NCBI GenBank assembly: GCA_947631995.1
Contig: CANRNT010000003.1
Span: 1-64,000 of the forward strand
From: an uncultured Clostridia bacterium
GTDB lineage: Bacteria; Bacillota; Clostridia; Oscillospirales; Ruminococcaceae
DNA length: 64,000 nucleotides
Direction: 5' to 3'
Below, in pieces: positions 1 to 55,068 of this stretch. A program made the translations under genes and the position numbers. Under the pieces are notes generated by a model. It did not search any database. It was given only the letters and a program-made list of their open reading frames with translations, and was not told where the DNA came from. Each line of letters starts with the position of its first letter. The stretch's first letter is position 1.

Positions 1-230
1 TTACTTTGCTTTATAAGATTTTTTCACTTTGTTTGGCGTTCTCTAAGAGAACGCGGAAAGAGAGCGATATCTTCTCAAAGGAAAATCCCTCTCTTGCAAG
101 GGATTAGCGTTCCCGTTTGGGAACAGCGGTTGCTTGCAGACGCTACACCCCCTGTGACCCTTGGCAGTTGCGAAGCAACTGTAAAAAAGAGGTCAATCGA
201 AAACTTTTCCTTTCTTGACAAGACTTTAAA
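1..230. repeat. Serial-hairpin intergenic repeat, copy I (window edge, composite)
   Basis: tttgctttataagattttttcactttgtttGGCGTTCTCTAAGAGAACGCggaaagagagc... CAGTTGCGAAGCAACTG ...gaggtcaatcgaaaactttt. Confidence 0.8.
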
Positions 231-3076: not shown

Positions 3077-3304
3077 AATTTTACCCTCCTAGTGGTACAT
3101 AAAAATATTGACTTGTATTAAATCGCTGCTGTCGCATCGTCTTGTCGGCTTTAGCCTCCAAGCCGCCTGAAAAATCCCTCGCCGCCATAAACGGTCGGCG
3201 GCGCATACCTTGCGGTATGACGGGCTTTTTTCGTTCACCGCTCTACAGTATTTTGGTTTTCTTCTCATTTCGAGTGTGCCAATACGTTCGCGCACTCTGT
3301 ATGT

Positions 3305-3545
3305 TATGAATTTTTCACATTGTATGGCGTTCCATAATGGAACGCGGAAAGAGAGCAATGCGATGCCACTAGGAAAATCCCTCTCTTGCAGGGATTTTCC
3401 TCTTGAAAAACAATCCACCGGATTGTTTTTCAATTCACCTTTTTCGGAGCGCACTCCGTGTGTTTGTGGGGCTCTGCCCCACACCTCGTGACCCTTTTGA
3501 AAAAGGGTCAATCGAAAACTTTCGCTTTCTTGACAGGACTTAATA
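3305..3545. repeat. Serial-hairpin intergenic repeat, copy II
   Basis: GCGTTCCATAATGGAACGC, GGAAAATCCCTCTCTTGCAGGGATTTTCC, ACAATCCACCGGATTGT, GTGGGGCTCTGCCCCAC, GACCCTTTTGAAAAAGGGTC. Confidence 0.85.
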
Positions 3546-48551: not shown

Positions 48552-48749
48552 AAAACCACTTTCCTTTCATTCATCTGATAGAAAATTTTCTGCAAAGCAT
48601 TTTACAATGCTTTCCAATACTATCTTTGACCGTTTGAGTGGTTTTATACATTCAACCGAAGCAAGAGGGAAGAACCGTCCTCGCCGCTCCGACAAGCCGC
48701 CGCGTTTTGCATACCTCGTGCCGCCGCATTATCCGCAGATAATATAAAA

Positions 48750-49190
48750 GAGATACGATCAACACGCTGAGATGTTTTAGCGGTCTCCGCAAATGCGGCT
48801 CGCCGCATTTGGTTCAGAATTGCGAAGCAATTCTTTTTGCGCTTGCCGTGCAAGCGCTGGAGACCGCTTACCTGCGCTGTGTGTTGCAATGATTTTTATC
48901 CGTCCTTTCGTTCTTGCCAAATGCCGTGTGCTATCTTATAGATATTACTTTTGAAAAGTACCCCTGATGGCAGTCACACATACTGCTATCCTACCGCGTC
49001 AGCACACGGCACAAACCGAATTTGTCGATTCCGCATACAAAAAATCGCCGCAAACAAGTTTTTAAGGCGGCGCATTTTTTGAGCGAGGGAGACAAATTCT
49101 TGAACTCTTTTGGTACTTTTCTCTTTCAAGAGAGAAAAGTACAAGAAAGTTTGTTGCAAAGAACATTCCACACTACTTGCCTATATTGTT
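48750..49190. repeat. Tandem noncoding unit, copy 1
   Basis: Near-identical to 49520-49960 at an offset of ~770 bp; contains AGCGGTCTCC...GGAGACCGCT and GCCGTGTGCT...AGCACACGGC multi-hairpin domains. Confidence 0.9.
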
Positions 49191-49519
49191 GGAGAGCGAA
49201 GTAATAATACTTTGCTTGTTATGAATTTTTCATATCTAGTCTCTAGTTATCTTGCCTCCAATACCCGCCCCCACTAACCTCCTGAGGAGAGACGTCTAGA
49301 AGAATATTCTGTCAGTACATACAGTATGGACACAGTTCAGTTTTTTAGGGATATATAGAGTTGGTCACAGCGTAATTATTTACTTGATGTGAGCATGGCT
49401 CTACCGAATAGCGTTATATTGCTGCTTCATATAACCCCTCCCCTAATAACCGCCCGTGGAGAGAGACAGCTGGAAGAATATTCTGCCAACGGCATTTTAG
49501 AGTACTATGATTATATAAA

Positions 49520-49960
49520 AGAGAAAAAATCAAAACGCGGCGATGTTTTAGCGGTCTCCGCAAATGCGGCTCGCCGCATTTGTTTCGAATTGCAAAGCAA
49601 TTCTTGTAGCGCTTGCCGTGCAAGCGCTGGAGACCGCTTATCTGCGCTGTATGTTGCAATGATTTTTATCCGTCCTTTCGTTCTTGCCAAATGTCGTGTG
49701 CTATCTTATAGATACTACTTTTGAAAAGTACCCCTGATGGTAGTTACACATACTGCTATCCTACCGCGTCAGCACACGGCACAAACCGAATTTGTCGATT
49801 CCGCATACAAAAAATCGCCGCAAACAAGTTTTTTAAGGCGGCGCATTTTTTGAGCGAGGGAGACAAATTCTTGAACTCTTTTGGTACTTTTCTCTTTCAA
49901 GAGAGAAAAGTACAAGAAAGTTTATTGCAAAGAACATTCCACACTTCTTAACTATCGTTA
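49520..49960. repeat. Tandem noncoding unit, copy 2
   Basis: As copy 1, with differences mainly in loops/linkers or conserving pairing. Confidence 0.9.
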
Positions 49961-50407
49961 TTTTGCTTCTGATACCCACCCACAGTCCACCCGTTAACAG
50001 AGAGACAACCGGCAGAATATTCTTCCAGACATCTCTCTTTTAGTGGTACGAGGACAGGGCATATTAAAACTTATCAATAATCGTGTAAATCACAGTACAG
50101 ACAAGCCCAAATCTCTTGCTTCAACTACTAGAGGCAAGATAACGAGAAGCAAGAGGTAAGATGTTTGGTTTTGAAAAGACTGCACTAAACTATAAAAAGC
50201 AATTTCTTGCTTCTTGCCTCTTGTAAACCGCAGGAGTGACAAGTTTGCACAAAGACAGAAAAAGACTTTTCTAACTTCTAACTTCTCACCTCTAACCTCT
50301 AATAGCGTCGCGCACGCTGTGTCTTTGTGGGGCGCTGACCGGCGGTCGCTTGCGAACGCTACACCCCGCGAACCTTGGCAGTTGCGAAGCAACTGTAAAA
50401 AAGAGGT

Positions 50408-50582
50408 CGACCGAAAACTTTTATATTCTTGACAAGAATTTTAAATTGCGGCGAAGCCGCTCCTTAACTATTCACTATTCATTATTCACTCTTTCACTAT
50501 TCACTATTTCTTGCTTCTTGCCTCTAAATCTCTTGCCTCTAGCGGCGGAGCGCCTGCCGCGTTTTCGAGGGCGCTGCCCGGC
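50408..50582. repeat. ~175 bp direct repeat, copy 1
   Basis: cgaccgaaaacttttatattcttgacaag...cgttttcgagggcgctgcccggc, repeated at 50867-51041. Confidence 0.9.
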
Positions 50583-50644: not shown

Positions 50645-50890
50645 AAATATTACTTTGCTTTATAAGATTTTTTCATTTCGTTTGGCGTTCCATAATGGAA
50701 CGCGGAAAGAGAGCGTTGCGCTACAACTAGGGAACGCCCTCTCTTGCAGGGCGTTCCCTCTTGAAAAACAATCCACCGGATTGTTTTTCAATTCACCCTT
50801 TGCGGAGCGCACGCTGTGTCTTTGTGGGGCGCTGCCCCACGCCCTGCGAACCTTTTGAAAAAGGTTCGACCGAAAACTTTTATATTCTTG
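50645..50890. repeat. Serial-hairpin intergenic repeat, copy III
   Basis: GCGTTCCATAATGGAACGC, GGGAACGCCCTCTCTTGCAGGGCGTTCCC, ACAATCCACCGGATTGT, GTGGGGCGCTGCCCCAC, GAACCTTTTGAAAAAGGTTC. Confidence 0.85.
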
Positions 50891-51041
50891 ACAAGAATTT
50901 TAAATTGCGGCGAAGCCGCTCCTTAACTATTCACTATTCATTATTCACTCTTTCACTATTCACTATTTCTTGCTTCTTGCCTCTAAATCTCTTGCCTCTA
51001 GCGGCGGAGCGCCTGCCGCGTTTTCGAGGGCGCTGCCCGGC
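50867..51041. repeat. ~175 bp direct repeat, copy 2
   Basis: Same sequence as 50408-50582 at an offset of 459 bp. Confidence 0.9.
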
Positions 51042-51138
51042 GGCTGTTCGCAGACGCTACACCCCGTGACCCTTGGCAGTTGCGAAGCAACTGTAAAAAA
51101 GAGGTCAATCGAAAACTTTCAGTTTCTTGATTTGAAAG

Positions 51139-53571
51139 TTAGCGATAATCAAACTTTTTCAGCCTAATCTCTGCTGTGAACACGTCGCCGTCGGGGGTTA
51201 CGGTGAAGCTGCCGCCGCACGCTTGCGTGAAGCTCTTGGCTATCGAAAGCCCGAGCCCGTTGCCCTCGCCTGTTCTCGACTTACTGCCGCGGACGAACCT
51301 TTCGGTTATCTCGTCGCCCGTAAAGTCCATTTCATACGACGCGATGTTCTTGACCGTGATTATCGCTTCGGTCTCACTCTCTGTGAGCGTGAGATAGATA
51401 CGCGTATTTTCGAGCGAATATTTAAGCGCGTTATCAACGACGTTCTGTATTATTCTGTACAGTTTTTTACCCTCACCGATGACCTTGACAGACTGCGGCA
51501 ATATCTCCGAGCGCACGTCTCTGCCATAGCGGTTTATCTTATCTTCCATATCGGCAAGAACCTGACGGACGAGTATTACTGCGTCTAATTCTTCGAGCTT
51601 GACGTCGGTCTCGCTGGTGGCTTTGGCAAGGTCGAACAGGTCGCTTATCATAGCGTTCAGCCGCTCAGTCTTGCGTATGAGAATATTCACATAATCTTTT
51701 GCCTCGTCGGGCAGTTCCTCTTTTGAGAGCAGGTCAACATAGCTCGTTATAGACGTAAGCGGAGTTTTAAGGTCGTGGGATACGTTGGTGACGAGGTCAA
51801 TTTTCATACGCTCGGACTTTATCTGCTCCTCAACGACCTTTGTAACGCTTTCGGAGATATTGTTTAAGTCCTGCTGTGCTTTATAGTTTACGTCCCAATC
51901 TTTGACCTCGGTCACGGAATAATCGCCGTTGCGGACATCCTCAATACGCTTGGTGAGCTTGGCGATAGATACTGCGTCTACGACTTCAAAAAATACATAG
52001 ACGAGTGCGAGCAGTATGCAGGCTACAAGGAACACTTCGGGATCCATAGTGACGAGCAGTATAAAGAACGCTATGATAGCGAGTATGCCGAGCCTTAGCA
52101 GGAAGCGTTTCATAAAGGCGGTATGGGTGGCTCTGCCGAAGGAGAGGAAAGCGTTTCTGACAACTTTGAAAGCCTTTTTTGCGAGCCGCCAAAGGAGCTT
52201 GAGAATTCTGAAAATAAGCGAGTCCTTGATGAAATGCTTGGTCTTGAACTTATTGATTATCGCGCCCGTTACGAGAACGCCTGTTATAGTGGCGGCGCCG
52301 ACGCCTGCCGAGATAGCAATGCGTATGAACATATCATTCAGCAGAGAGTCCGCAAATGCTTCCGTCGCGTAGCTGTACCATTGATTATAATACATACCAA
52401 CGCCGTACAGTATCTCGTCTATCAGCACGACTGCGGCAAATACGAGGAATGCAAATGCTGAGAGGTATATTTCCGTATACATTTTATCGAGGAAAGACAG
52501 CCTATAGCAGCCTTGCTCTAAGTCATAGCCGCAGAACACCCAGTATACAATGGCTATGACGAACGCCGCCGCCAGAATTGCGCACAGGGTTATAATATAG
52601 CGCGCTTCTTTAGTATAATAATCTGCGAGGATATTTTCGTTTGCCTCGTAGTTTTGTATGACTTCTTTGGTAGGTGCGATACATATTCTCATATCGCTGC
52701 GCGTAATGCCGCCTGCTGACTGCGAAAAATATGTGTCGCTGTCTGCTTGCACCTCTATCCATTTATGGGCAGTCTGGTCATACAGGGCTACGGTATTGCC
52801 ATAGTCGTCAACACGGAAAATACGGGCGTCTTCTATATTATTCTGCACTATATTGCCAAGGACAGCAGACAGGTCTGATGTATCGTAAATAAAATAGGGG
52901 GTACAGTCAAGTATGAGGTCGCTGTCTGACGGCATGGGTGTAGAGCCGTCTGTTTTATAGTAATACTTCAGATTATCTTCATAATAATACGGAAGATCGG
53001 TGGTATCAAAATCATACACGTTATAAACGTTATTGTTTACTATATACTGCGTAAGGCCGTATGATGTGGTATAGACATAGCAATCGGGAAGGCCGATATA
53101 TTCGCCTTTTTGCGGATAGGCAGTGCCGTTATACGTTGTCTCAAAAGCATAGCCGGTATTGCACAGATCGTCCGGTGTTTTATCGGTATTTGAAAGGACC
53201 TTGCCATTGCACTCGGCATAATATTCAAGGTTTTCAAAATCGTCTATAACAACTGCGCCGTTTTTGACAATGCCCCATTCTCCGAAGAGTTTTTCCAAAG
53301 CTGCCTGATGATATTTATTCACCGTATATCTGCCGCTGCCGTCGGTGTTGGCAAGATACATATTGGTTGCGACCCAAAGCTGCGTATACAGGGTGGAGAA
53401 GTCGCGCATATGGTCGGAGCTGTATAGATAGTTGTCGTAATTTTGCACGGTTTTTGGGGCGTTTACAGCGATAGTGACAAAGCCGAGCGCGGCGGAAGTG
53501 ACAATTGCAAATATTATCGCTATAAGGACGGCGCGTGATATTCTTTTTTTGAGGACTTTCATAAAATTCAC
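51139..53571 (-). CDS. Membrane sensor histidine kinase
   Basis: VTNVSHDLKTPLTSITSYVDLL H-box, HATPase GEGNGLGLSIAKSFTQACGGSF. Confidence 0.95.
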   Translation of the reverse strand: MNFMKVLKKRISRAVLIAIIFAIVTSAALGFVTIAVNAPKTVQNYDNYLYSSDHMRDFSTLYTQLWVATNMYLANTDGSGRYTVNKYHQAALEKLFGEWGIVKNGAVVIDDFENLEYYAECNGKVLSNTDKTPDDLCNTGYAFETTYNGTAYPQKGEYIGLPDCYVYTTSYGLTQYIVNNNVYNVYDFDTTDLPYYYEDNLKYYYKTDGSTPMPSDSDLILDCTPYFIYDTSDLSAVLGNIVQNNIEDARIFRVDDYGNTVALYDQTAHKWIEVQADSDTYFSQSAGGITRSDMRICIAPTKEVIQNYEANENILADYYTKEARYIITLCAILAAAFVIAIVYWVFCGYDLEQGCYRLSFLDKMYTEIYLSAFAFLVFAAVVLIDEILYGVGMYYNQWYSYATEAFADSLLNDMFIRIAISAGVGAATITGVLVTGAIINKFKTKHFIKDSLIFRILKLLWRLAKKAFKVVRNAFLSFGRATHTAFMKRFLLRLGILAIIAFFILLVTMDPEVFLVACILLALVYVFFEVVDAVSIAKLTKRIEDVRNGDYSVTEVKDWDVNYKAQQDLNNISESVTKVVEEQIKSERMKIDLVTNVSHDLKTPLTSITSYVDLLSKEELPDEAKDYVNILIRKTERLNAMISDLFDLAKATSETDVKLEELDAVILVRQVLADMEDKINRYGRDVRSEILPQSVKVIGEGKKLYRIIQNVVDNALKYSLENTRIYLTLTESETEAIITVKNIASYEMDFTGDEITERFVRGSKSRTGEGNGLGLSIAKSFTQACGGSFTVTPDGDVFTAEIRLKKFDYR

Positions 53572-54309: not shown

Positions 54310-54739
54310 ATGATGATTCCCTTCTTTTATATAATTTTATAAGATAAATCAGAGTTAGACGAAGAAACATTCTGCACTACTTACCTATCTCGTTGGAGCG
54401 CGAAACCTATGTTTTTAATCTGTCTTTCCGTTCTTGCGTAATGAAGCCTAGAATGAAGAGATAGCGAATTTTCACCACGGCTCTGCGCGTGGATGAGGGT
54501 CGGGTACAGCGTTCGCAAGCGACCGCCTAAGGGGAGCGCTAGGAAAGGGGGGCAAGTTTCGCAAGAAACTTGAAGCGAACGCAAGCGTTCGCTGTAGAGC
54601 AGCGCGCCCTTCCAGTCTTATTTACCCCCTAAGTCCTCTATGGCACACTTCACTTCGTGAAGTGCAGAAGAATTGGGCAAAGCCCAATTCTTTACGCGAC
54701 TGCAAGCAGTCGCTGCCCCTCGCAGGGAGATACGCAAAA

Positions 54740-54985
54740 GAAATATTACTTTGCTTTATAATATTTTTTCACTTTGTTTGGCGTTCCATAATGGAACGCG
54801 GAAAGAGAGCGATAACTTCTCAAAGGGGAGGCTCTCTCTTGCAGAGCCTCCCCTCTCCAGAAACAGTCCACCGGACTGTTTCTGAATTCACCTCTTGCAG
54901 AGCGCACGCTGTGCCTTTGTGGGGCGCTGCCCCACGCCCCGCAAGCCTTTTGAAAAAGGCTTGACCGAAAACTTTTATTTTCTTG
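54740..54985. repeat. Serial-hairpin intergenic repeat, copy V
   Basis: GCGTTCCATAATGGAACGC, GGGGAGGCTCTCTCTTGCAGAGCCTCCCC, ACAGTCCACCGGACTGT, GTGGGGCGCTGCCCCAC, AAGCCTTTTGAAAAAGGCTT. Confidence 0.85.
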
Positions 54986-55068
54986 GCAGGTGCTACAACC
55001 ATTGTAGCATACTTTTCTTAAATTGCAACTATCGGAAGTCTTAAATAATTCTTAATTATCACAAAAAA

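Follow-up and report, generated by a model that had tools for sequence, protein, structure and literature searches.

The window, that is, the whole 64,000-nt stretch analysed here, comprises the first 64 kb of contig C3 in an assembly of 2.03 Mb and 59 contigs. Dispersed between its genes is a repeat built of serial hairpins (Table 1). The reference copy has 60 matching stretches in its own genome, where 48 oriented copies or part copies were assembled. The sequence-only reading of the window had reported four copies, and all four are real, with the H1, H2, H3 and H5 arms as it quoted them. One of the four had been called rearranged, which it is, although in detail a further hairpin module takes the place of H3 and breaks the H2 3' arm, and another hairpin has been inserted into H5. 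On the plus strand the order of the parts is H1, a short spacer, H2, H3, the linker, H4, H5 and a tail ending in TTGACA. The core conserved across genera consists of H2, H3 and the linker.

Table 1. Copies and parts of the repeat in the window, with positions as read on the plus strand.
Feature	Position	Strand	Remarks or basis
Reference copy	3294..3545	- (proposed RNA sense = minus)	own-genome matches, structure, strand
H1 hairpin GCGTTCC-ATAAT-GGAACGC	3327..3345	.	
H2 hairpin, 11 bp arms	3371..3401	.	invariant loop TCTCTTGCA (TGCAAGAGA on RNA strand)
H3 hairpin, 14 bp arms	3403..3433	.	3-nt loop ACC (GGT on RNA strand)
Linker TTCACC-nn-T-nnn-nn-AGCGC	3434..3452	.	3440, 3441, 3446 and 3447 covary with H2 pairs 4, 5, 10 and 11, parallel register
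H4 hairpin GTGGGGC-TCT-GCCCCAC	3466..3482	.	sequence
H5 hairpin TGACCCTTTT-GA-AAAAGGGTCA	3489..3510	.	
Conserved tail CGAAAACTTT..TTCTTGACA	3514..3545	+	
Rearranged copy	1..230	-	H1 GCGTTCT/AGAACGC, H2 3' arm interrupted, H3 replaced, hairpin inserted in H5
Intact copy	50650..50899	-	H2 GGGAACGCCC, H3 TTGAAAAACAATCC, H5 GAACC
Intact copy	54746..54994	-	H2 GGGGAGGCTC, H3 TCCAGAAACAGTCC, H5 AAGCC
Tail-only fragment	50305..50440	-	linker-side part with H5 insert
Tail-only fragment	51028..51141	-	

The hairpin arms differ from copy to copy. The alternative H1 allele GCGTTCT/AGAACGC is found in 12 of the 37 scored copies, and H5 occurs as GACCC, AAGCC, AACCC or AATCC, each with the matching 3' arm. 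The 252-nt copy folds 7.5-8.2 sd below shuffled sequences on either strand. Its inverted repeats are the internal hairpins H1, H2, H3 and H5 and one further internal pair (71%); when terminal inverted repeats, a MITE trait, were sought in the copy, none was found to join its two ends. Other hairpin modules interrupt several copies at fixed sites, namely the H2 3' arm and the H5 loop, and interrupted and truncated copies are common in the family. Modules inserted at identical sites within H2 and H5 were seen in the window (100-200) and at L033, L042, L043 and L045, as if hairpins target hairpins. Just upstream of the 54.7 kb copy (54400-54745) there is a run of short perfect hairpins, e.g., CACTTCACTTCGTGAAGTG and AAGAATTGGGCAAAGCCCAATTCTT, and the intergenic regions near this copy look like mosaics of hairpin modules. 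A long intergenic stretch of the window also holds a direct duplication with a spacing of approximately 770 bp (48738-49184 and 49509-49955), the pieces of which are 90-97% identical. An outward promoter starting from the tail TTGACA (3525-3545 and other copies) was considered and rejected, as a -10 box with at least 4 matches followed in 66 of 179 cases and in 53 of 179 shuffled ones; TATAAT-like boxes and a ribosome binding site do lie behind the TTGACA in occasional copies, with no overall enrichment.

The family extends well beyond the window. A covariance model of the core, which was run on this genome and its relatives, detected 42 cores in the own 2.03 Mb genome, 90, 73, 69, 57 and 32 in five sister species of the genus, 13 and 1 in two further species, and none in two other species of the genus. 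In the taxonomic family, a pattern with anchored loops and free arms matched 21 of 398 genomes, which belong to 9 of 126 genera; the reversed control pattern had no match in the same set. Ruminococcus flavefaciens XPD3002 and MA2007 are among the named hosts of the repeat. The plasmid, phage and viral collections and contigs that were searched contained no match to the repeat. Contig ends of genome G000 (L011, L012, L014, L015, L020 and L023) hold many copies, so the repeat breaks short-read assembly.

The folded shape of the core is preserved: changes in the H2 and H3 stems come in pairs that keep the stems intact, while loops and linkers hardly vary. In a set of 271 H3 hairpins, collected with the arms left free in the searches, 3736 of 3794 pairs are Watson-Crick (98.5%), the remainder being 31 A.C, 1 G.T and 26 others. 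These hairpins represent 75 distinct arm pairs, 52 of them perfect, and 11 of the 14 pairs have changed on both sides; H2 has 16 perfect arm alleles with 7 of 11 pairs changed on both sides, and its mismatch counts in this set include interrupted copies. The H3 loop is mostly ACC or ACA across the family. In an alignment of 29 divergent cores (A1), 97.5% of the cells pair, 18 of 25 pairs have changed on both sides and the invariant columns fall mostly in loops and linkers. The covariation score of this alignment was 0.413 against 0.145 +/- 0.011 for shuffles, none of 500 being as high, and it did not exceed 0.131 when the partner was slid by one to three columns. In a column-by-column scan the strongest mutual-information signals were the expected H2 and H3 pairs. 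H1 and H5 are too conserved to give strong evidence of covariation. RNAalifold predicted an additional hairpin in the linker, which is unsupported at its variable pair 7-14 since that pair fails to covary (CG 10, CA 7, UG 7, UA 4). That the arms covary had been proposed from the window copies alone, with absence of covariation over many copies named as the refuting outcome. Covariation is present and stronger than first reported, and selection on RNA or cruciform structure, as then suggested, is supported by 160-271 copies from many genomes in which both-side changes are far above shuffles.

Covariation without selection could in principle be produced by mutational bias only, if one arm serves as the template on which the other is repaired by template switching. 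Template switching is known to act on long quasi-palindromes, and the arms of the repeat are almost always perfect. Such a process does not predict loops and linkers that are invariant across genera, nor the strand bias of wobble pairs or the coupling of the linker to H2 across an unrelated hairpin (both described below); it is already disfavoured and we regard it as very unlikely.

The linker that follows H3 coevolves with the H2 stem. The two vary together in parallel register, both within the home genus and in other genera, and the H2-linker signals are the strongest in mutual information after the stem pairs themselves, H2 pair n going with linker base n+3. The matched H2/linker sets are GGGGA/CCCCT, GGGAA/CCCTT, GGAAA/CCTTT and GGAGA/CCTCT and, near the loop, CCC/CGG, CTC/CAG and CCT/CGA. 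Over 59 distinct combinations, Fisher tests for pairs 4, 5, 10 and 11 gave 5e-4, 2e-11 (a5-k8), 4e-11 (a10-k13) and 8e-5, respectively, and 0.025, 2e-7, 2e-5 and 4e-4 without the home genus. One parallel register reached z 9.6, with all remaining parallel registers at 3.6 or below. Antiparallel pairing of the linker with H2 was rejected: its registers capture single columns only, and the best of them (z 7.3) reuses a10-k13. A copy at a contig end with the rare H2 end CTT has AA at the two predicted linker positions, with deviating neighbouring linker bases. Exceptions exist, as 25 copies with G at H2 pair 4 have T in the linker.

Both the stem covariation and this coupling might be mere haplotype linkage if a few ancestral subfamilies had been shuffled by recombination. 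The home genus has only four main H2 alleles and the copies are clearly recombinant mosaics, which speaks for this reading, but H3 alone has 52 perfect alleles. In addition, the linker tracks H2 inside those H3 alleles that are common to several H2 alleles (3.75 of 4 columns) and does so in distant genera, always in one register. Linkage is thus a poor explanation of the coupling, and the subfamily reading as a whole is hardly credible.

Complementarity in parallel register is not Watson-Crick pairing, which cannot explain the coupling of linker and H2, whereas base triples can. The pattern fits a pyrimidine third strand parallel to the purines of the 5' arm (pairs 2-7), continued by a purine strand antiparallel to the purines of the 3' arm (pairs 10-11), with the physical model left open. 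A third strand that changes in step with H2 hints at a rare natural triple helix, for the physical formation of which there are no data. On the minus strand the relation needs mostly purine-motif triples, unusual for RNA, and therefore the physical triple model is uncertain; the pyrimidine-motif triples usual in RNA would suit the plus strand as RNA, which conflicts with the wobble bias of H3. We put forward only tentatively, and without probing or structural data, that the core is a natural triple helix of RNA (or single-stranded DNA) carried by a mobile repeat, in which the linker lies along the whole 11-bp H2 and contacts purines of both arms, an alternate-strand triple kept by selection in dozens of copies and several genera.

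The strand of the RNA was judged from the mismatches. The 74 distinct H3 alleles together have 20 A.C mismatches against 1 G.T on the plus strand (two-sided binomial approximately 2e-5, calculated by hand), and the 29-row alignment read on the minus strand has 11 G.U cells against 3 A.C. What is an A.C mismatch on the plus strand becomes G.U when read on the minus strand; only with the minus strand as the RNA, therefore, are the tolerated intermediates wobble pairs. The mismatches of H2 have no strand bias (12 A.C and 11 G.T by copy) and those of H5 are about equal in number, so the inference rests on H3. This indirect bias, in the absence of expression data, points to an RNA read from the minus strand.

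No copy lies inside a called gene or ORF, in agreement with the earlier description of the window copies as intergenic. The orientation common to the four window copies, also described earlier, is not maintained genome-wide, where both orientations and head-to-head pairs occur. These mixed orientations, the minus-strand wobble bias and the triple covariation of linker and H2 go beyond what had been noticed in the window. Copies are rare between divergent genes (5 of 96, compared with 56 of 229 intergenic regions overall). In the own genome they lie near gene ends, typically within approximately 100 nt; of 45 copies, 31 have a tail-side gene directed into the element and 14 one that reads away from it. 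The thrS leader in the window (3077-3300) has no T-box at the Rfam gathering score, and in the congener G006 a T-box-like sequence, GTGGTTCCACCC, was noticed upstream of thrS (L192). The repeat was also considered as an intrinsic terminator and rejected, there being no consistent U-run after H2. In one Ruminococcus flavefaciens copy (L088:5044-5085) a T run lies behind the RNA-strand H2, which resembles an intrinsic terminator and is not general.

Such positions would suit a host-beneficial 3' UTR element that stabilises mRNA 3' ends or insulates transcription, with the copy being kept for each gene. The avoidance of divergent regions, the closeness to gene ends and the strong fold all speak for this reading. 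It is at odds with the genes that read away from the tail side, with the lack of a regular U-run and with orthologous sites where copies turn over fast, are truncated and swap alleles, and we consider it improbable. Between sister species, the same gene-end positions show turnover of copies and exchange of alleles. Both the thrS and the glgP site, compared among sister species (ThrS 99% identical, glgP approximately 90%), hold between zero and two copies, head-to-head pairs or remnants consisting of the tail alone, and differing H2 and H3 alleles are found at the same place; this variation in copy number and alleles indicates turnover and exchange between copies. The flanks in these presence/absence comparisons are rearranged, and no exact ends, target-site duplication or precise empty site could be resolved.

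The mobiliser was not identified. The Y1 transposase (PF01797) is absent from the six element-bearing genomes of the genus in a search whose control matched 5 of 14 known genomes. Reverse transcriptase (PF00078), the mark of a retro-mobile RNA such as a group II intron or a retron, is likewise absent from all six and is present only in G006, which has no element, and TnpB (PF07282), the mark of an IS605-type RNA-guided element, had no match over the cut-off in the genus. The structure might instead act at the DNA level, the arms forming hairpins or cruciforms and, together with the linker, a triplex resembling H-DNA, in single-stranded or supercoiled DNA that is recognised by a transposase, a nucleoid protein or a topoisomerase. 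The mirror symmetry between the linker and the H2 3' arm is a classical H-DNA signature, DNA accommodates both triple motifs, the H2 mismatches are strand-neutral and both orientations occur at gene ends. Against this, the 20:1 wobble bias of H3 needs a strand-specific RNA, and no single-strand (Y1) transposase was found in the six element-bearing genomes; a DNA structure is in our opinion rather unlikely.

As judged by analogy, the repeat works like REP, BOX and Correia elements and belongs to no family tested here (BOX by anatomy only). The view that no named family matches it has held, and it is not filed under known families since the REP transposase is missing, terminal inverted repeats were not seen and there is no Rfam match. 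Rfam gave no match in the window at the gathering cut-off and no family at relaxed thresholds, where R. flavefaciens yielded sub-threshold matches only. A weak one, to Clostridiales-2 RNA (RF02937, 18.5 bits), concerns upstream hairpins of two R. flavefaciens copies; it is far below the gathering score of 58.6, absent from the window and outside the conserved core. No description of the family was found in the open-access literature, which is weak evidence of novelty given the partial coverage. REP elements carry a GTAG motif and come with a Y1 transposase (PMC8266576). The GTAG-type tetranucleotide stands 5' of a palindrome of 20-40 nt; the linkers of the Ruminococcus repeat have the sequences TTCACC and AGCGC. 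REP/BIME (RAYT, TnpA-REP) are also high-copy palindromic intergenic repeats with serial hairpins, important loops and paired mosaics (PMC8266576), but the genomes bearing the Ruminococcus repeat have no PF01797 match. BOX, RUP and SPRITE of Streptococcus pneumoniae are short, strongly folded, interspersed intergenic repeats, BOX being modular; they are enriched between convergent genes, form 3' extensions of transcripts and have an unclear mobiliser (PMC3049150). The terms "compensatory" and "covar" do not occur in that report (PMC3049150). The likeness lies in short, folded, modular intergenic repeats with an unclear mobiliser, whereas sequence and anatomy differ from BOX, the Ruminococcus repeat having five or more serial hairpins and a core common to several genera. 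We know of no linker-stem coupling in BOX. Correia/NEMIS and ERIC elements, too, are folded repeats scattered between genes, with which they can be co-transcribed (see the summary in PMC3049150). Inverted repeats of 26 bp mark the ends of Correia elements, while those of the Ruminococcus repeat are internal hairpins and not ends. The mobile GC clusters and double-hairpin elements of fungal mitochondria resemble it in that their palindromic modules fuse, become shuffled and recombine, without any enzyme being known for this, but they are organellar and much shorter, and neither covariation nor linker-stem coupling appears in the report on them (PMC4478555).

The best reading is a repeat family homogenised by gene conversion, the core of which is selected as a folded RNA, with mobiliser and function undetermined. 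With transcription inferred and no expression data, we give about an even chance to the specific proposal that the repeat is dispersed and non-autonomous, with a core (linker, H3, H2) that is maintained as a folded RNA from the minus strand and would read 5'-GCUCYGCAARRGGUGAA-H3-G-H2-3'. This RNA would arise mostly by read-through from neighbouring genes, as an extension at their 3' ends, and would fold into two rigid hairpins, the linker presumably docking along the H2 helix as base triples. The structure may be kept because only well-folded copies propagate or persist. The repeat would spread via an unidentified mobiliser and gene conversion among copies, which would shuffle alleles, while new alleles would need paired changes. 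If selection acts on spreading and not on each locus, interruptions and truncations should be frequent, as they are. Effects at the level of genes, such as mRNA 3' end protection or shaping of read-through, would then be incidental.

Although many intergenic repeats fold, the reason why they keep their fold is rarely established. The dozens of natural variants present in each genome serve here as a mutational experiment that reveals the paired positions, a pointer to the transcribed strand and a third strand. If the triple is true, it would be a rare case found by covariation alone and testable with short oligonucleotides. The family spans many Ruminococcus-type gut genomes and breaks their assemblies, and naming it helps annotation.
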